The translations under genes were made by a program, and so were the position numbers. Below are positions 449 to 11,851 of a stretch of 64,000 nt of DNA, in pieces (within the stretch, counting starts at the first letter, position 1; each line of letters starts with the position of its first letter). The notes under the pieces are model-generated. The model searched no databases. It worked only from the letters and a program-made list of their open reading frames with translations, and was not told the origin of the DNA. The stretch is from Bifidobacterium breve (lineage in GTDB: Bacteria; Actinomycetota; Actinomycetes; Nanopelagicales; Nanopelagicaceae). Where the stretch lies: the NCBI GenBank assembly GCA_945863115.1, contig CAMAYZ010000006.1, positions 1 to 64,000 on the forward strand. The letters run 5' to 3'.

Positions 449-802
449 TTAATTCTCGAAGTTGCGTCGCTCCCATCGATCCTCGAGGCGTGAGCTCCAC
501 TTAGGGCGAGCGCCTTTAGGGTTCTTGAACTCAGATTTTCCAAAAGATAGGTTTGAAAGAAAGAGCACTAGGCCAGCCAGCGATACCAAGAAGCCAGCGA
601 TTCCTAGTGGAATTACCTGAGATATCAGGCCTGAGAGCAATACCAACATTCCTGCCAAAATTGATACAAATCCAAGTAGAGCACGTGAACCCCTTGGTGT
701 GCGCTCGCGGCCATTTAGCGTTGAAACTAAATGTGGATCGTCAGCAACCAGGGCAGCTTCCATCTCGGCAAGCATGCGCTTTTCGTGATCGGATAGGGCC
801 AT
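449..802 (-). CDS. DUF3040 family membrane protein
   Basis: A small actinobacterial protein of unknown function (117 residues). The N-terminus MALSDHEKRMLAEMEAAL is the DUF3040 signature, a short charged helix. Two hydrophobic segments follow (roughly residues 43-60 and 65-82) and then a basic tail. The longer in-frame start upstream is rejected: the ATG at 800-802 sits 7 nt after a TATTGT box with no Shine-Dalgarno site, the leaderless pattern seen throughout this window. The gene stands between the division cluster and the mutagenesis operon, as DUF3040 genes often do near mraZ in actinobacteria. A role in envelope or division is only a guess. Confidence 0.85.
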   Translation of the reverse strand: MALSDHEKRMLAEMEAALVADDPHLVSTLNGRERTPRGSRALLGFVSILAGMLVLLSGLISQVIPLGIAGFLVSLAGLVLFLSNLSFGKSEFKNPKGARPKWSSRLEDRWERRNFEN

Positions 803-809
803 GCCCACA

Positions 810-815
810 ACAATA
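810..815 (-). promoter_or_regulatory. -10 element of a leaderless DUF3040 transcript
   Basis: TATTGT on the minus strand ends 7 nt before the ATG, with no ribosome binding site between. It supports the internal start at 802. Confidence 0.55.
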
Positions 816-875
816 CGACAGGTAGTCAAAGTATGAAAGTCGAACCCAAGTGTTTTTGCCAGTTATAGGCAGGTT

Positions 876-2054
876 TTAAGAATCTTCTTCAATTTCATCG
901 AATAGCCGTGCTGGCCGGACGCTTCCCTGGCCAAATCGAGCGCTCGCCTTATCCATCGCCGCGGTCGCCTGGCGCCATCCGTTCTCGCGCTCTCCCAAAA
1001 CCAACTGTTCGGAGGCATCTATGCCGTCTTCTAGACCGTCAAGGCTTACTCCAACCAATCGAATCCTGGCGCGATCTAATTTGAGGCCGAGAAATAAAGC
1101 TTTGACTACTTCGAAGACTTCATGCGTTGCACTTATCGCAAGTGGAACTGTTTTTGAGCGAGAGATAGTTTTGAAATCTGCAAAGCGCACCTTTATTGAA
1201 ATGGTTCGCGCACTAAAATCTTTCTCACGCATTCGGTAAGTTGCCTTCTCGGTTAACCGTAATAGTTCTCGTAAAACAATCTCTTGATCCTCGGTGTCAG
1301 AATCAAAAGTCTCAGCAGCGCTAATTGATTTATCTACCTCTTCCGGCTCTACATCACGATAGTCGCGTCCCCAGGAAAGTTCATAAAGTGAAGCTCCGGC
1401 TGCTTCACCAAGGGCGCGGATCAAAGTTTGGCGTGGGGTGTTTGCAATATCAGCAACGGTTCGAAGTCCCAGTTTCTGAAGTTCCTCATTTGTCTTGGGC
1501 CCAACTCCCCAGATTGCATTTACTGGTAACGGGTGCAGAAATTCGAGCACTCGATCTTCGGCAATTTCCAGCATGCCATTTGGCTTACACCGTCCGGATG
1601 CGAGTTTTGCAATAAATTTTGTTGTCGCTATTCCGACCGAACAAGTTATCCCTTCACTGGCTTCTACTTTTGCCCTAATTTGTTTTGCAATTTCGCGGCC
1701 ATCACCAAGTAAACGTTTGGCGCCGGTTACATCAAGGAATGCTTCGTCCAAAGAAAGTGGTTCGACAAGTGGAGTAACTGATCTAAAAATTTCCATAATG
1801 TGCGATGAGACTTCGGAATAGCGAGACATATTTGGTGGCACAAAAATTGCATGTGGTGCCAATCGTTTTGCTCGACCCACCGGCATCGCGGCATGGATTC
1901 CGAATTTACGGGCCTCATAATTCGCTGCAGAGACAACACCACGAACTCCAGTTCCGACAACTACCGCTTTGCCTTTTAAAGCAGGGTTGTCGCGCTCTTC
2001 TACTGAAGCAAAGAAGGCATCCATATCAACATGGAGAATCGTTGACTCACTCAT
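876..2054 (-). CDS. dinB: DNA polymerase IV (Y-family translesion polymerase)
   Basis: A full-length Y-family polymerase of 392 residues. The catalytic metal ligands are intact: HVDMDAFFASVE (D10, D12) and SLDEAFLDV (D103, E104). Helix-hairpin-helix and little-finger regions follow, and a QLVLGE stretch near residue 350 may be a sliding-clamp contact. The start ATG overlaps the TGA stop of the dnaE2 gene upstream (ATGA), so the two are translationally coupled. In many actinobacteria this position beside dnaE2 is held by ImuB, which lacks catalytic residues; here the partner looks catalytically competent. As last gene of the LexA-controlled operon it should be induced by DNA damage. Confidence 0.93.
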   Translation of the reverse strand: MSESTILHVDMDAFFASVEERDNPALKGKAVVVGTGVRGVVSAANYEARKFGIHAAMPVGRAKRLAPHAIFVPPNMSRYSEVSSHIMEIFRSVTPLVEPLSLDEAFLDVTGAKRLLGDGREIAKQIRAKVEASEGITCSVGIATTKFIAKLASGRCKPNGMLEIAEDRVLEFLHPLPVNAIWGVGPKTNEELQKLGLRTVADIANTPRQTLIRALGEAAGASLYELSWGRDYRDVEPEEVDKSISAAETFDSDTEDQEIVLRELLRLTEKATYRMREKDFSARTISIKVRFADFKTISRSKTVPLAISATHEVFEVVKALFLGLKLDRARIRLVGVSLDGLEDGIDASEQLVLGERENGWRQATAAMDKASARFGQGSVRPARLFDEIEEDS

Positions 2055-5000
2055 GTTGTGCTGGCTCCATAAACTGCGAGATTACGCCACTTTTCGTGAG
2101 AATTTGCTAACTCCCACGCACCAGTTCCAAGAAGTGAAATTCCTCTTGGGCCAGTTCGGCGAATTTCACCGCGGACTAAAAACAGCCAAGAATTTCGTAG
2201 CACTGCCGCAAAATCGGTCTGCTTATCTTCGAAGAAAGTTATGTCATTGCAGCCATAGCCATCGTCAATAGTTAAGAACATTACTCGTCGACCAGAACGG
2301 ACTGGTGGGGTTTGAAGTGCAAGCTTCACGCCAGCAACCAAAACTGATGTTCCAGAGCGATGCTTAATTAAATCGCAAGAACGCACTGCCCCAATCTTGT
2401 TTAAGAAGTCGCCATAAAATTCGAGTAAATGGCTAGATACATCCATACCCAAAATATCTATCTCATTTCTAACCTGTTCACTTGCCGTTATATCTGGCAG
2501 GCCACTTGGTTCAAATTTTTCTGGCTGCAATTCAAAGCTCATCTGGTTCTGACTAGTAGCGCTCTTTGACCCAGCTAGGCGATATAAATCCTGCAGGTGA
2601 AGTGATAAATCGCGGCGATTGATATTTGATGTTGAAAGTTTATGAAGATCATCGAATGCGCCAATCATCAATAATGACTCGGTAGTTGGGCGACTTGCGC
2701 CAGAGCGATAAACAAAGTCGGCTAAATCTAAATATGGGCGCCCCGAAATTATGCTTTTAATTTCTTTGCCATCAATTCCATCAATATCACTTAGCGCCAT
2801 CCGAATTGCAAAGCCTCTGGCATCTGGAAGTTTTAGTTCGGCTCCAGAACTTAAAACATTTGGCGCAAGATATGGCGCTCTAGTAATTTTTGAACTCTTC
2901 TCGACCCGATAAGTAGCATCTGATAAATTCACATCAATTGGTGCAATTTGAATTCCCCACTGCCGTGCTTCATCCAAGATAACGCGCTTTGGATACATGC
3001 CTGGTTCGTGCGTTAAGACACCTGCCAAGAATGCAGCGGTGTGATGAGTTTTCAGCCAAGATGATTGATAAGTCGGAAGTGCGAATGCGGCAGCATGCGC
3101 TTTGCAGAAACCAAATGATGCAAAGGCGCGCAAGATCTCCCAAACTTCTGTGACAACGACAGTGGTGTAACCGCGAGCAAGGGCGGCTGGATAAAACCAG
3201 TCGCAGACCGTTTGTTGATTAGCGATATCGCCTAATTGGCGCCGCTTCTCATCGGATTCAGCCAGCGATATTCCAGTCATTACCGAGATGATTCGAATAA
3301 CTTGTTCGTGAAAAACAACTACGCCTTCAGTCTCAGACAAAATATCTTCGAGGTCGTCGTGAATTATTGGTCGAACTCGCAAGCCATGTCTGGTTGCAAG
3401 AAATGGCGTGATCATGTCGCTCTTAACTGGGCCCGGACGGAAGAGAGAGATATCAATAATTAAATCGTTGAAAGTTTCTGGTGCAAATTTTCCGACAAGC
3501 TCGCGCTGTCCTGGACTTTCAATCTGAAATATTCCTAAGGTCCGAGTTGATTTAATTAAATCAAAAGTGGCGTGATCATCTAAAGCAATCTCATCGATAT
3601 CAATTGGAGCGCCCTCAATTCGCTCAATCTCAGAGAGCGTATAAGAAATTGCCGATTGCATTCGAACACCAAGAACATCTAACTTAAGCAACCCAATCGC
3701 TTCGACATCATCCTTGTCGAATTGGACCATGGGATATCCACTTGCATTCATCTGTTGTGGTGCGTAATCCCCCAGCCCTAAATCTGATAAAACAATTGCA
3801 CATGGGTGCATCGATAAATGTCTGGGCAGCGAATCTAAGCGACCAGCAAGTTCAATGGCCATCTTTAGGATTGGAGTATTTAGATTTAAATCTTTTAGTT
3901 CGGGCAAGTTAGCCAGCGCCTTTGGGATATTGCTAGATCTAATATGCGGCATTGATTTTGCAATTAAATCAATCTCTATCGGGGATATTCCAAGGGCGGC
4001 GCCAACATCTCTAATCGCATGGCGGGATCGATAAGTTTCAACCATCGAAACTGTTGCGCAACGTTGGCCATACTTCTCAAAGATTGCATCATAAATTTCT
4101 AACCGCCTGGCAGATTCAACATCAATATCAATATCTGGCAGCTCGCCTCGAAGTGGCGAACAGAAACGTTCCATTAACAAGCCATGCGTTATTGGCTCGA
4201 CACCAGATATTCCAAGCACATGGCAGATCAGTGAACCGGCGCCACTTCCCCGAGCTGCGACTCGAATCCCTTTGCTGCGCGCTAGATCGGTGATATCTGC
4301 AACTGTTAGAAAATAAGATTCATAACCAAGAGTCCGAATCGCACTTAACTCTTCCTCTAACCGACTTGCTGCAACAACTGATTTTGAACCAACATATCTG
4401 CGAGATAAACCAGCTTCACATCTAGAGCGCAGTTGTGTTGCAAGTTCGCTGTGATTCGTGGCCCCAAGTGCAGCAGCATCAGGTAAATGAATAGCCCCAA
4501 TACCAACATCTTTTCGTGGTGAAAGAAGTGCGCGCTCCGCCCAATCCCTAGTTGTGTTTAATAACAATCGGCCATCGCGTTCGCCAGCAAGCCGAGAAAT
4601 TTCATCTGCCAAATAACCCATCTGCGAACTATCTTTAAAGTAAGCCTCGCTATTCTGGCGGCTTACGCTCTTATTGCTTAATGGAACTAACTTTCGGGCT
4701 GCATCCAAAACATCAGCAACTGGACCATCATCGCGATCCAACATTCGTACTGCATTACTTAAAATTGCAGGGATGTGGTTATCTCTGGCAAAGCCCAGTA
4801 TTCGCGCTGCATGCGAGGTCGAGAATTGGGCATCGCCTCGAGTTAAATGCGAAACACATTCCAGCCCTTGATCAGCAAATAGTTCACGAGTTGAGTTAAA
4901 TATCGAAAGCGCCTCGGCACCTTTGCGAGCAGCAATTGTCGAAGCCAACTGTGACTCTGGACCATGTAGCACAAGTAAATTTCTAGAGTATTGGCTAAAG

Positions 5001-5338: not shown

Positions 5339-5665
5339 TTACAGCGGCCGAGATGTTGGGCGGATCAACCAAGTTTTTGTTACTTCATCTAATTCGATTT
5401 CAAAGGTTGTTAAAGCACCTTCAGGCGCTGCTTCTACTCGCCAGATTGCGCGAGCGCCATCATCGAAGATCGTTGATTCGGTTACGCGATTCTTGCCATC
5501 ACTTATGCGATTCCACCAGCCACCAGATTCACGCCATCTCGAAACGATTGCATGGATATGAAACTTGCGACCGTTGTAGATGAACTCAATTGGTTCACCT
5601 TCTGGGGCAAGCACGCGAGCACCCGCAGGGCTGGCTGGATTCTGGGTTATGGCTTCTTCGAACAT
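5339..5665 (-). CDS. DUF6504 family protein, first gene of the mutagenesis operon
   Basis: A small protein (108 residues from the chosen start) with a conserved core, PIEFIYNGRKFHIHAIV, then WRESGGWWNRISD and a C-terminal region ending in WLIRP. DUF6504 proteins are commonly encoded beside imuB or dnaE2 in actinobacteria; their biochemical role is not known. The ATG at 5663-5665 lies inside a LexA box, 8 nt after a TATCTT -10 element, implying a leaderless message. A GTG at 5612-5614 is an alternative start. The gene ends 3 bp before dnaE2. By association it should act with the translesion polymerases, for example as a fold-stabilising or recruiting subunit; that is inference. Confidence 0.82.
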   Translation of the reverse strand: MFEEAITQNPASPAGARVLAPEGEPIEFIYNGRKFHIHAIVSRWRESGGWWNRISDGKNRVTESTIFDDGARAIWRVEAAPEGALTTFEIELDEVTKTWLIRPTSRPL

Positions 5666-5674
5666 ATGTTCGAA
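5657..5674. promoter_or_regulatory. LexA (SOS) box
   Basis: TTCGAACATATGTTCGAA is a perfect 18-bp palindrome containing TCGAAC-N4-GTTCGA, the actinobacterial LexA consensus. It starts at the edge of the -10 element and covers the predicted transcription start and first codons of the DUF6504 gene, so bound LexA would block initiation of the whole DUF6504-dnaE2-dinB operon. Confidence 0.9.
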
Positions 5675-5702
5675 AGATAACCGCCTCCCCTGACAGGCGC
5701 AA
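5674..5702 (-). promoter_or_regulatory. Promoter of the mutagenesis operon
   Basis: On the minus strand a TTGCGC -35 box (5697-5702) and a TATCTT -10 box (5674-5679) are separated by 17 bp. The predicted transcript starts almost at the ATG of the DUF6504 gene and inside the LexA box. Confidence 0.65.
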
Positions 5703-5744: not shown

Positions 5745-6494
5745 ATGGAAATTGCGCTCGCCCTCATCGCAGGTGTGTTTATCGGCTCAGTCCTTGGCTT
5801 CATCGGCGCAGGTGGCGCAATGCTTACAGTCCCGATTCTGATCTATCTATTTAATTTCACACCAGTTCATGCAACTACCGCTGCCCTGTTGGTTGTATTT
5901 CTTGCCGCTGCATTTGGTCTAGTCCCCAAAATAAAGGCTGGCGATGTTCAAATCAAAATCGCGCTTTCCATTTGGTCACTCGGTTTAATAACAAACCTTG
6001 GTGGCGCAATTGTTGCAAGGCACCTATCTGATGCTTTCATAATCACCGGGTTTTCAATCATCCTGGTTTTAGCTGGGCTTTCGATGCTTCGCGCGCCAAT
6101 AACAGAGCGCACCGAGAAGAAGATTCCAATTATCGCCTTAGTTCCGCTCTCTTTGGTTATAGGTTCGATGACCGGAATCTTTGGTATCGGTGGCGGCTTT
6201 CTTGCAATCCCGATACTTGTAATTTTCTTTCACACCCCGCAAATTAAAGCAGCCGGAACTTCACTCTTTATTATTGCGATTAACTGCCTTACAGCTCTGC
6301 TTGGACGTCAGTATTTATGGCAAGAAATTGATTGGAAGATTCCAGTCATAATCTCGATCTCAGCAATAATTATTTCGATCTTTGGCTCTCACCACAGTTC
6401 TAAAGTTCCAACTGCGATACTTCGTAAATCCTTCGCCTACTTGCTCTTTGCTATTGCAGCATTTTCAATCCTAGAAACCTGGGTTATTTCCTAA
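5745..6494 (+). CDS. TSUP family permease (TauE/SafE type)
   Basis: A polytopic membrane protein of 249 residues with about eight hydrophobic segments and two related halves. Each half carries a glycine-rich loop: FIGAGGAMLTVPIL near residue 20 and GIFGIGGGFLAIPIL near residue 145. These are hallmarks of the TSUP (DUF81) family, which moves sulfite, sulfoacetate or other organic sulfur anions across the cytoplasmic membrane. The substrate cannot be read from sequence. It diverges from the mutagenesis operon across an 80-bp gap, and its 3' end overlaps the convergent copC-like gene by 11 bp. Confidence 0.85.
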   Translation: MEIALALIAGVFIGSVLGFIGAGGAMLTVPILIYLFNFTPVHATTAALLVVFLAAAFGLVPKIKAGDVQIKIALSIWSLGLITNLGGAIVARHLSDAFIITGFSIILVLAGLSMLRAPITERTEKKIPIIALVPLSLVIGSMTGIFGIGGGFLAIPILVIFFHTPQIKAAGTSLFIIAINCLTALLGRQYLWQEIDWKIPVIISISAIIISIFGSHHSSKVPTAILRKSFAYLLFAIAAFSILETWVIS

Positions 6495-8485: not shown

Positions 8486-9301
8486 ATGTCAATTCGCCAA
8501 TACCGCCCGAGAAATAATCGGCGCCGTGGAATTTCAGCGAATCAAAGTTTTGGACTGATTTTACTTTTCGCCTTAACTGTTTCATTTCAGATCACTTATC
8601 CCCTCGTTTCTGGGAACACTCTGCGCTATGTAACTATCTTCTTTGTTATTTCTGGTGCCCTCTTAATGCTGGCTCATTCTTTTCTATCTTACGGATTTAA
8701 ATACTTTGCAATTTTCGGAAGCACCACATTTATTTTCTCGCTCTTGGTTGAAATTTTGGGAAGTAAAACGGGTTGGCCTTTTGGAACTTATGCCTACGAT
8801 GATTCTCTTGGATTCAAAATTGCGGGTGTTCCAATAATTGTTCCTCTCGCTTGGATAATGATGGCTCATCCAGTTTTGATTGCTGCTAGAAAAACTATTC
8901 CAAGTTGGGCATTTTTATATGGTGGTGCTGGTCTGATGGTTTGGGATCTCTTCTTAGATCCACAAATGGTCGCAGTTGGAAAGTGGGAGTGGGATGTCGT
9001 CGGACCACATGTTCCATTCCAACCAGAGATTCCACTTTCGAATACTGCGGGTTGGCTATTCGCTGGCATGGGATTGATGGCACTTTTGAATTTAATCTTG
9101 CCAAAAGAACGGCGCAAGATTGGCGTAAATTCAACTATTCCAGATTTGTTTTTAGCGTGGACCCTTTTCTCATATGTTGTTGGAAATCTATTCTTCTTTG
9201 ATCGTCCCGGAGTCGCAATCTTTGCAGGTCTCGCCTTCGCAATTTGGATTGCGCCTTATCTCTTTGTAATCTCTTTTGGCAAGCCTGACTTACTTAAGTA
9301 A
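8486..9301 (+). CDS. cruF: CruF-type carotenoid 1,2-hydratase (DUF422)
   Basis: A 271-residue integral membrane protein with about seven hydrophobic helices. Diagnostic segments are GWPFGTYAYDDSLG near residue 95, PLAWIMMAHPVL, WDLFLDPQMVAVGKWEW near 155, and IPLSNTAGWLF near 180. These match the family that includes cyanobacterial CruF and archaeal bisanhydrobacterioruberin hydratase, which hydrates the psi end of acyclic carotenoids to give a tertiary 1-hydroxyl. The stop is immediately followed by the ATG of the glycosyltransferase gene, as in cruF-cruG pairs elsewhere. Confidence 0.87.
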   Translation: MSIRQYRPRNNRRRGISANQSFGLILLFALTVSFQITYPLVSGNTLRYVTIFFVISGALLMLAHSFLSYGFKYFAIFGSTTFIFSLLVEILGSKTGWPFGTYAYDDSLGFKIAGVPIIVPLAWIMMAHPVLIAARKTIPSWAFLYGGAGLMVWDLFLDPQMVAVGKWEWDVVGPHVPFQPEIPLSNTAGWLFAGMGLMALLNLILPKERRKIGVNSTIPDLFLAWTLFSYVVGNLFFFDRPGVAIFAGLAFAIWIAPYLFVISFGKPDLLK

Positions 9302-10348
9302 ATGATTGAATTCTGGCTCTGCGCGATTGCGCTAATTATTACTGTTGTAAATGTAATTAATATGCGGGTTGTCGGATTGAGAGGCGCCACAAGTGTTAGT
9401 GAAACTATCGATGTTCTCATTCCGATGCGTGATGAAGAAGAGAATGTCGAAGGTTGTCTTAAGTCGTTAATAAATAGTGAATTACTAGAGGCCAGCCGAG
9501 TTTTCGTTCTGGACGATGGGTCAACTGATTCAACAGCTCAGCTAATTAGCGAATTCAAAGTTGAAAAGTTAACAGGTACGGAGCCTCCAGCTGGCTGGCT
9601 TGGCAAAGTATGGGCCTGTCACAATCTTGCGCAAAGCGGTTCAGGTAAGTATTTAGTCTTCATGGATGCAGATGTTCGCCTTCATCCTTACGCAATCGCA
9701 TCTGCCATAACAAAGATGAATAATTTTGGTTGGGATTTCATCTCACCATATCCAAGACAAATTGCTGGTTCATTTCTTGAGAAGCTAATTCAGCCACTTC
9801 TCCAATGGTCCTGGCTTGCAAGTGTTCCACTCCGAATTGCAGAAAAATTCCCCAACCGCTCTATGACTATTGCAAATGGCCAGTTCTTTATAGTTAAACG
9901 AAGCGCTTACGAGAAATCTGGTGGGCATGCCGCAATTCCAGGTGAGGTATTAGACGATCTAGAACTTGCCCGGCTATTAATTAGCCACGGATTCAAAGGC
10001 GGAGTTGCAGATGGAAGCGCTGTTGCAAGCTGTCGGATGTATAAAAACAATTCCCAGTTAATCGATGGCTATACCAAATCACTTTGGAAGGCATTTGGCG
10101 GTCAATTCGGAACTTTGCTGGCAATCTTCCTTCTTTACTTCACTGGAGTATCGCCATATCTAGGAATCGGAGCACCAGCTTCATTTATTTTTCTCTCACG
10201 TGTTCTTGCGGCAATAAAGACCAGATCCAATCCGGCATATGCGTTCTTGCATCCGATAGCAATTCTAGTTTTATTGTATTTAATTGTTCTATCTTCGATT
10301 CGCAAATCCCGTGGAACCTTAACTTGGCGCGGTCGGGAGCTTTCTTGA
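9302..10348 (+). CDS. Membrane-associated family 2 glycosyltransferase, CruG-like
   Basis: 348 residues. An N-terminal hydrophobic helix is followed by a GT2 catalytic domain: VLIPMRDEEENVEGC near residue 40, VLDDGSTDST near 70, and the DXD-like FMDADVRL near 120. GEVLDDLELARLL holds the downstream ED-type acid. The C-terminus has two to three hydrophobic helices. It begins directly after the cruF stop and ends directly before the crtD-like ATG. By context it should glycosylate the hydroxyl introduced by CruF, as CruG does. The sugar donor and acceptor cannot be read from sequence. Confidence 0.83.
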   Translation: MIEFWLCAIALIITVVNVINMRVVGLRGATSVSETIDVLIPMRDEEENVEGCLKSLINSELLEASRVFVLDDGSTDSTAQLISEFKVEKLTGTEPPAGWLGKVWACHNLAQSGSGKYLVFMDADVRLHPYAIASAITKMNNFGWDFISPYPRQIAGSFLEKLIQPLLQWSWLASVPLRIAEKFPNRSMTIANGQFFIVKRSAYEKSGGHAAIPGEVLDDLELARLLISHGFKGGVADGSAVASCRMYKNNSQLIDGYTKSLWKAFGGQFGTLLAIFLLYFTGVSPYLGIGAPASFIFLSRVLAAIKTRSNPAYAFLHPIAILVLLYLIVLSSIRKSRGTLTWRGRELS

Positions 10349-11851
10349 ATGTCTAAAGTAATTGTTATAGGTGCTGGAATCGGTGGCATGTCTGCTGCTG
10401 CGAGATTGGCTAAGGCTGGACACGATGTCACAATCTTTGAAAGCAGTGATCGCACTGGTGGGAAATGCCGCACAAAATGGATCGGCAACTACGCATTCGA
10501 TACCGGTCCCTCTCTCCTCACTCTGCCAGCTGTATATCGAGATCTCTTTTTAAAGACCGGAAAACGTATTGAGCACGTTCTGGAAATTCAACCGGTTGAT
10601 CCAGCATTTGAATACAACTTTGCTGACAAGACAAAGTTAACTTTCCCAAATCTCTCACTTAAAGGAATTTGTGACTCAATCGAATCAGTTTTAGGTAAAG
10701 CAGCGGGCGATGAATGGCACAACTTGATGCAACGCGCTGAACATATGTGGGATGTATCTAGAACCCCATTTGTAGAATCCGAACTAAAATCGATTAGAAG
10801 TTTGATTGCTAAAAAGGGTTTCTTGTCAGATCTACGAGTTATTGCTCCGTTGTTATCGCTTCGAAAATTAACAAGCCAATACACCAAGAATCCATATCTT
10901 TCGAAGATAGTCGACCGGTATGCCACATACTCAGGTTCTGATCCACGTAAGGTCCCTGCAGTATTACTTACAATCGCATTCGTTGAATCTTCCTTCGGTG
11001 CCTGGCATATCAAAGGCGGCATTGGCCAACTTGCTGTTGCACTTGAAACTCGTTGCCGGGAATTAGGCGTTAAATTTGAACTCAATTCACCAGTAACAAG
11101 TATTAATCATGATTCAAAAATAGCAACTGGGATAACTGTGGGAAATCAAACCCATAAAGCAGATTTTGTAGTTGCTAATGCCGATGCCGAAATCGTTTAT
11201 AACAAATTGCTCTCTTCAGATTTAAATATAGTTAAATCAGAGCGCAAGAAACTAGCCGGATCCACAAAGTCACTTGCTGGTTTCTCACTTTTGCTTGGAC
11301 TTAACAACAATAAATTATCTGGACCAGCCCCAAAAATGCCTCACCATTCAATCTACTTTCCAGAGAATTACGATGCAGAATTCGATAACATTTTTGAAAA
11401 GAAGATTCCGGTTAGTGAGCCAACTATTTATATCTGCGTGCCTAATGATCCAAAGATGGTCAAGGGTGAGAATTTAGAAGCTTGGTCGATTTTAATCAAT
11501 GCACCGAGACATGAACCTGGTTCTGGTTGGGATTGGAACAACAACTCTTCGCTTTATGCTGCAAAGATAATTGCAAAGTTAGATGAACTTGGTTTACAAG
11601 TTTCTGAACGTTTAGAAGTTATGGAGTATGAGACACCTGCTGATTTAGAAAATAGCGTTGGCGCACCAGGTGGTTCTATCTATGGAACTTCAAGCAATGG
11701 TGCACGCTCAGCTTTTATGCGGGCTAAAAATACTTCTCCCCTAAAGAATTTATTTTGCGTTGGTGGCTCAGCACATCCTGGTGGTGGACTTCCGCTAGTT
11801 GGTATTAGCGCTGAAATAGTCGCTGAGGCAATCGGAAAAGCTAGTTTGTAA
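10349..11851 (+). CDS. CrtI/CrtD family carotenoid desaturase (probable 3,4-desaturase)
   Basis: A 500-residue FAD-dependent desaturase. The Rossmann motif GAGIGGMSAAARLAKAG sits at residues 8-24, followed by FESSDRTGGKCRT, and the C-terminal FAD-binding block is GGSAHPGGGLPLVGISAE. It is a paralogue of the CrtI encoded at 14424-15908 but clearly divergent. Its place in the cruF-glycosyltransferase arm, apart from crtB/crtI, suggests CrtD-type 3,4-desaturation of a hydroxylated acyclic carotenoid. Family membership is secure; the exact reaction is inference. The 3' end overlaps the convergent phosphatidyltransferase gene by 11 bp. Confidence 0.85.
   Translation: MSKVIVIGAGIGGMSAAARLAKAGHDVTIFESSDRTGGKCRTKWIGNYAFDTGPSLLTLPAVYRDLFLKTGKRIEHVLEIQPVDPAFEYNFADKTKLTFPNLSLKGICDSIESVLGKAAGDEWHNLMQRAEHMWDVSRTPFVESELKSIRSLIAKKGFLSDLRVIAPLLSLRKLTSQYTKNPYLSKIVDRYATYSGSDPRKVPAVLLTIAFVESSFGAWHIKGGIGQLAVALETRCRELGVKFELNSPVTSINHDSKIATGITVGNQTHKADFVVANADAEIVYNKLLSSDLNIVKSERKKLAGSTKSLAGFSLLLGLNNNKLSGPAPKMPHHSIYFPENYDAEFDNIFEKKIPVSEPTIYICVPNDPKMVKGENLEAWSILINAPRHEPGSGWDWNNNSSLYAAKIIAKLDELGLQVSERLEVMEYETPADLENSVGAPGGSIYGTSSNGARSAFMRAKNTSPLKNLFCVGGSAHPGGGLPLVGISAEIVAEAIGKASL

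Follow-up and report, generated by a model that had tools for sequence, protein, structure and literature searches.

The genes DUF6504, dnaE2 and dinB, which lie on the minus strand of the analysed window (the whole stretch of 64,000 nucleotides, bases 1–64000 of contig C6), likely form an operon for translesion synthesis, inducible by DNA damage and of the predicted DnaE2B-[ImuB-C]-PolY-RecA kind. It would be repressed by LexA, and activation by PafBC, a leaderless mRNA and the joining of its products in one complex are also proposed (Table 1). The source assembly comprises 1,324,682 bases in 31 contigs and is 93.5% complete. A preliminary description of this DNA had reported an SOS-type mutagenesis cassette of three overlapping or nearly touching genes in this order, with a perfect 18-bp LexA palindrome over its start and a Y-family polymerase retaining its catalytic site, and this reading is supported by the operator, the gene set and the residues; the PafBC-like promoter did not figure in it. 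The gap between DUF6504 and dnaE2 is 3 nt, and dnaE2 and dinB overlap by 4 nt. A TauE-family gene in the opposite orientation starts at 5745, on the upstream side of the operon.

Table 1. Features of the operon and its promoter region, in window coordinates.
Feature	Coordinates	Strand	Basis or detail
LexA operator	5657..5674 (16-bp core 5658-5673)	.	perfect 18-bp palindrome TTCGAACATATGTTCGAA
PafBC-type promoter core TGTCAG-N10-TATCTT	5674..5695	-	TGTCAG 5690-5695, -10 5674-5679
DUF6504 (predicted stand-alone ImuB-C), 108 aa	5339..5665	-	PF20114, 35.4 bits, cut-off 24.2
dnaE2 (DnaE2B-like), 1094 aa	2051..5335	-	Pfam, alignment, tree
Clamp-like motif QNQMSF of DnaE2, aa 929-934	2534..2551	-	aligns with QFDLF of own DnaE1
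dinB / active PolY (predicted), 392 aa	876..2054	-	Pfam and NCBIfam DNA polymerase IV; D10, D12, D103, E104
Clamp-like motif QLVLG of DinB (putative), aa 350-354	993..1007	-	from pattern
RecA-N-terminus-like DinB tail, ~aa 360-383, FGQGSV at 374	906..977	-	profile-profile match

The palindrome is the sole perfect match to TCGAAC-N4-GTTCGA in the assembly, where ~0.07 matches were expected from base composition, and the ATG of DUF6504 (5665–5663) falls within it. With two mismatches allowed, the motif was not above chance in the window (1 match against 2.52 expected) or in the genome (51 against 77 for a reversed-pattern control), and the weight of the box therefore lies in its perfect match, its position and its conservation. 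Five one-mismatch sites occur in the assembly, two before SOS genes and three within long ORFs. One-mismatch boxes were found 157 nt upstream of the genome's own recA and between its lexA and a divergent LysM (yneA-like) gene; the lexA product scores above its equivalog cut-off and the LysM protein matches YneA below the cut-off for that family. Of 30 recA loci, seven lacked the text pattern used for reading; the remaining 23, the own one included, all carry a box with no more than one mismatch. Such a box also lies at most 600 nt upstream of DUF6504 in 37/37 stretches with DUF6504 from the order Nanopelagicales, 34 of them perfect (from a set of 50 loci, 13 without DUF6504, one of these being the misplaced stretch L076), and in all 71 named loci with DUF6504, 68 of them perfect. 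A start-like in-frame codon lies within the box in 56 of 79 order rows (ATG 51, TTG 4, CTG 1). With the operator at its promoter and both LexA and RecA encoded in the assembly, the operon belongs to the predicted LexA regulon.

Gene order in relatives shows that DUF6504 heads the same operon there. A DUF6504 match is present in 177 of the 201 genomes sampled from the order and in 76 of the 198 from the phylum. In the order, DUF6504 and the Y-family gene share one strand within ~5 kb in 106 of 117 genomes, with the other 11 having them on different contigs; these distances come from the matches listed, 150 rows for DUF6504 (177 genomes with a match) and 150 rows for the Y-family gene (188 genomes with a match). 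The two are no more than 15 kb apart on the same strand in 38 of the 61 phylum genomes (of 75) that entered the comparison, in which Y-family places were taken only for DUF6504-bearing genomes and one place each; the remainder have them near each other on opposite strands (3), farther apart on one contig (3) or on different contigs (17). Of 80 named loci, 71 hold DUF6504, among them those of Janibacter, Nocardioides, Humibacillus, Propioniciclava and Streptacidiphilus, with dnaE2 downstream in 71/71 and dinB downstream in 58/71. The 13 loci without a downstream dinB in the stretch include some at contig ends. No dinB was found within the stretch examined in the loci of Modestobacter, Geodermatophilus and Blastococcus. 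In the class sample, DUF6504-dnaE2 occurs in at least three lineages, closed or near-complete, whose stretches showed no dinB downstream, which counts against the preferred reading.

Loci without a DUF6504 match were also inspected. In seven of ten such order genomes (L120, L121, L122, L124, L125, L126 and L127) the stretch ends at a contig edge within dnaE2 or immediately next to dnaE2 or dinB, and L119, L123 and L128, from genus g4, have dinB without an adjoining dnaE2. The first of these three is from a complete-looking relative in one contig (G019), with dinB present and no DUF6504 match. Five of the nine named loci without a match start at or near a contig edge. L198, L199 and L227 have a box 640–720 nt before dnaE2 with no DUF6504 match between, and L186 has a box directly before dnaE2 and no DUF6504 match, which is again counted against the preferred reading. 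Several of the records carry titles that look mistaken: L165, L190, L198 and L204, titled Bifidobacterium breve, hold Nanopelagicales-like or related cassettes, and L162, L167, L169 and L194, titled Streptomycetaceae bacterium, look alike in this apparent mismatch.

These arrangements bear on whether the three products act together or merely share a promoter. If regulation were all that is shared, DUF6504 would serve DnaE2, and DinB would be an independent Pol IV made from the same mRNA, a reading that we hold to be rather unlikely. It is favoured by genus g4, where seven of the eight searched genomes have DUF6504 and six carry box-DUF6504-dnaE2 as a unit away from dinB; DUF6504 thus appears to follow dnaE2, with dinB as the looser partner. 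These six units (L141, L142, L143, L145, L146 and L147) sit just downstream of a gene for a 242-aa MCGRY protein (SRAP-type in the one of six that was scanned), and the seventh genome (L144) has a TauE-like gene upstream of DUF6504, as in the window. In G008 and G011, each assembled as one contig, several hundred kilobases separate DUF6504 from the Y-family gene. The genus-g4 arrangement is likewise counted against the preferred reading. The loci lacking a downstream dinB point the same way, as does an Arthrobacter plasmid with DUF6504-dnaE and no Y-family gene among the neighbours, and DnaE2 linked to ImuB-C alone is a published type (PMC12926913, sections available). A Pseudarthrobacter plasmid match (E 0.03) was set aside, with unrelated genes around it. 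Against shared regulation alone stand the same-strand dinB of the 106 order genomes among the matches listed, the 58 named loci with dinB downstream and the 4-nt overlap in the window.

The promoter of the operon was then considered. TGTCAG-N10-TATCTT (5695–5674) directly precedes the 16-bp operator core and has the core signature of mycobacterial PafBC promoters, given as tTGTCRgtg-8 nt-TannnT and TGTCRG-10xN-TA-3xN-T (PMC5656591, PMC8151990, in the parts available); here the core differs in adjoining a LexA operator on a mutasome operon. TGTCR-N11-TANNNT is present in 65 of 70 distinct order promoters, which are non-independent samples drawn from genome-search stretches and named loci (identical upstream sequences counted once; L197, L221 and L227, titled Nanopelagicales, put outside the set), and is absent from L092, L093, L094, L095 and L132. 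When spacers of 5–20 were scanned in these promoters, only one case other than 11 was seen, with spacer 8. The core adjoins the box without a gap in 60/64 alignable order promoters, and all seven promoters of genus g4 carry it, as do, with unchanged spacing, 14 of the 38 promoters taken from outside the order. The background was 40 matches in 20000 random 50-nt stretches of the same loci, three spacers being allowed. The genome also encodes PafC (PF19187) beside a second WYL protein, which is called PafB by its WYL domain and adjacency only. By its TGTCRG-N10-TANNNT promoter and this PafC/PafB-like pair the operon is a predicted member of the PafBC regulon, and PafBC probably activates it in addition to the repression by LexA.

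It is doubtful that TGTCRG-N10-TANNNT is the vegetative promoter of this lineage for the operon, with PafBC uninvolved. Such a role would fit a pattern that is not enriched genome-wide (12 matches against 9 for the control), its absence from the own recA promoter and from five of the order promoters, and the relatedness of the genomes compared. It is opposed by the near-constant spacer set against the low background, by the core adjoining the recA box in 14 of 23 recA loci and preceding the own yneA-like gene, by the promoters of the same spacing outside the order and by the presence of PafC. For S. venezuelae, an initial search reportedly did not find the PafBC motif to be conserved, which also counts against a role for PafBC. 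At the yneA-like gene (L008 1400–1640) the arrangement is TGTCAG-N10-TATAGT, 6 nt, and a one-mismatch LexA box ending at the ATG. Elsewhere in the genome (L270/L271), PafBC-type patterns precede the ATG of a DnaQ-like exonuclease gene by 7 nt and a dnaN-like gene by ~124 nt, both genes being named by eye.

The -10 element ends 8 nt upstream of the ATG, which points most naturally to a leaderless mRNA, and the transcript of the operon is probably of this kind; for M. tuberculosis, translation of LexA from a leaderless message has been reported (PMC2897130). Among the papers listed in literature searches on PafBC and on SOS/LexA in Nanopelagicales, the composite LexA/PafBC promoter arrangement was not found.

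The first gene product, DUF6504, is, as judged by profile matches, the C-terminal domain of ImuB standing alone. The preliminary description had it in the place of ImuA; such a stand-in role is ruled out, as PF20114 matches the C-terminus of ImuB proteins, above its cut-off in Sphingomonas and below it in Roseomonas and Agrobacterium. A profile made for this analysis also matches ImuB C-termini, with modest E-values. Five tryptophans (W44, W50, W51, W75 and W99) are invariant in 56 DUF6504 sequences, in agreement with the published conservation of a C-terminal tryptophan in ImuB-C (PMC3765255). The structure model of DUF6504 is of low confidence (mean pLDDT 67.2, pTM 0.52), and its comparison with the PDB gave 132 matches at E ≤ 10, not one of which reached E ≤ 0.001; a search by sequence for a solved relative gave none at E ≤ 1. 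A literature search on the name DUF6504 found no paper in the library covered, and it is through sequence and conserved operon context that the name is here tied to ImuB-C.

It has been proposed that ImuB-C is mainly a DNA-binding recogniser of damage (PMC3765255, 2013, in part), in which case DUF6504 would guide a co-encoded repair enzyme and would not be a DnaE2-binding subunit. Three phylum genomes in which DUF6504 lies 40–113 nt directly before the Y-family match agree with this proposal and are counted against our preferred reading. We consider it improbable, given that DUF6504 stays with dnaE2 in genus g4 where dinB lies apart and that models of the M. tuberculosis mutasome put ImuB-C on the PHP domain of DnaE2 (PMC12926913, sections available).

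The closest named record to the second gene product is from a Candidatus Nanopelagicales MAG (93% identity), so that the DNA most likely comes from a small actinobacterium of freshwater type. The score of this DnaE is below the curated NCBIfam cut-offs of both the replicative and the error-prone model. In a tree of 34 rows it falls into a group of 29 rows (support 100/99) with DnaE2 of Streptomyces and of an Arthrobacter plasmid, and three ImuB-linked proteobacterial DnaE2 fall outside this group. The enzyme appears to group with actinobacterial DnaE2B-like enzymes, in a tree drawn without mycobacterial DnaE2A or the rows of PMC12926913, in which the branch of the own DnaE1 is very long and the rooting serves display only. 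The catalytic residues D401, D403 and D553 are kept in 34/34 aligned rows. The PHP site is, by alignment, degenerate, with HLHVH at the start of the domain in the own DnaE1 corresponding to HLRVA in DnaE2, and with further PHP positions differing. Opposite QFDLF of the own DnaE1, a pattern Q[LM]x[LF] was counted in the printed alignment in 28/30 DnaE2B-like rows and in 0/3 ImuB-linked rows. QNQMSF of DnaE2, which resembles the clamp-binding consensus, may bind the clamp.

The third gene product, DinB, retains D10, D12, D103 and E104, as had been described, and is apparently an active PolY. Both catalytic patterns are present in 116 of 120 related DinB proteins, the clamp-like pattern in 104 and the strict FGxG[STA] tail pattern in 89. 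The tail of DinB may resemble the N-terminus of RecA. Profile-profile comparison supports this (hhalign probability 62.9, score 25.5, with 0/100 column shuffles as high and a maximum of 20.8), and two weaker tests do not: 61 of 5000 shuffles reach the pairwise score, and in a search with a DinB-tail profile RecA was not among the matches listed. A RecA query gave one match in each of 31 genomes, the own included, a search that a distant ImuA could escape. A classic ImuA-ImuB-DnaE2 mutasome with ImuB encoded elsewhere is highly improbable, as the 93.5% complete assembly has a single Y-family match (PF00817), a Y-family match was found in 188 of 201 order genomes with exactly one in 187 (two in G072), and no point was found in its favour; no separate ImuB was thus found.

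Returning to the preferred reading, LexA would cover the transcription start and the ATG and so repress the operon, and damage would open it through RecA-driven removal of LexA. Activation of PafBC type at the adjoining TGTCRG/-10 core would probably add an induction that is independent of RecA. The dnaE2 gene of M. tuberculosis was clearly dependent on RecA in the recA mutant, yet its upregulation persisted in the double-depleted strain (PMC5656591, PMC8151990). From the probably leaderless mRNA, ImuB-C (DUF6504), DnaE2 and DinB would be made from tightly packed genes. DUF6504 would most likely dock on DnaE2 at its degenerate PHP domain, in the manner of ImuB-C in the M. tuberculosis mutasome model, and DinB would take over the part of ImuA by binding RecA through its tail. 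Each polymerase may hold the clamp by its own clamp-like motif, an inactive ImuB would then not be needed as clamp adaptor, and the two enzymes would divide the labour between them. Taken to its full extent, the proposal is that this freshwater order keeps its translesion arsenal in one operon behind a composite gate, with the LexA operator enclosing the start point and ATG of a PafBC-type promoter. A RecA-independent activator and RecA-LexA would there be read jointly, and a leaderless mRNA would yield a RecA-linked complex of ImuB-C and two active polymerases of different families; this is put forward tentatively, at somewhat below an even chance.

The make-up of the cassette is not new, as papers of 2013 (PMC3765255) and 2019 (PMC6511836) had already described ImuB-C standing alone with DinB or DnaE2, and in 2026 a DnaE2B group with an active PolY, a stand-alone ImuB-C and RecA was set out as a predicted complex, with Tessaracoccus lapidicaptus as representative (NAR 2026, PMC12926913). 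In the available sections of the last of these, the type DnaE2-[ImuB-C]-PolY-RecA is stated to be found in Actinobacteria only. The Tessaracoccus lapidicaptus-type module likewise has a stand-alone ImuB-C and a predicted active PolY, and no ImuB, and its DnaE2B-like enzyme and the RecA-like tail of its PolY may be shared as well; it is also actinobacterial, its representative lies outside the freshwater order, and no promoter is given in the sections covered. With the common ImuA-ImuB-DnaE2 (ImuC) mutasome the operon shares LexA control, DnaE2 and the ImuB-C domain, and it differs in that no ImuB was found, the Y-family member is catalytic by its residues, ImuB-C is separate and there is no second RecA-like match. 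The difference from imuA-imuB-dnaE2 given in the preliminary description stands as regards the Y-family member with its catalytic residues; the comparison with ImuA cannot be upheld.

Other operons are alike in part, as far as the available sections of their sources go. The Deinococcus operon lexA-imuY-imuB-C-dnaE2 also has, under SOS control, dnaE2 and a Y-family gene together with an ImuB-C that stands alone, and UV mutagenesis of D. deserti requires ImuY and DnaE2; it differs in that ImuY is predicted to be inactive and lexA lies inside the operon (PMC8072749). The dnaE2-dinP pair of Streptomyces venezuelae has dnaE2 followed by a Y-family gene and LexA sites, and is induced there by mitomycin C (PMC9380542), whereas in the related pair of S. 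coelicolor the Y-family protein is described as inactive and there is no ImuB-C (PMC6511836). Being very small, free-living and limited to one Y-family gene, genomes of this kind would make a minimal system for testing a mutasome that is known, in the papers covered, as a prediction, namely one with two predicted catalytic polymerases, ImuB-C and probably RecA, and no ImuB. The adjoining PafBC-like and LexA elements point to control of mutagenesis by two damage signals in these lake bacteria.

A DUF3040 gene (449–829, minus strand) lies 46 nt past dinB, with a match to the SCO2097 family below the equivalog cut-off. In relatives of genus g4, dinB was seen by eye to be still adjoined by a similar DUF3040-like and an MraZ-like gene, with dnaE2 gone. 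A run of carotenoid-synthesis-like genes (membrane protein, glycosyltransferase and desaturase-like, by eye) occupies 8486–11851 on the plus strand.
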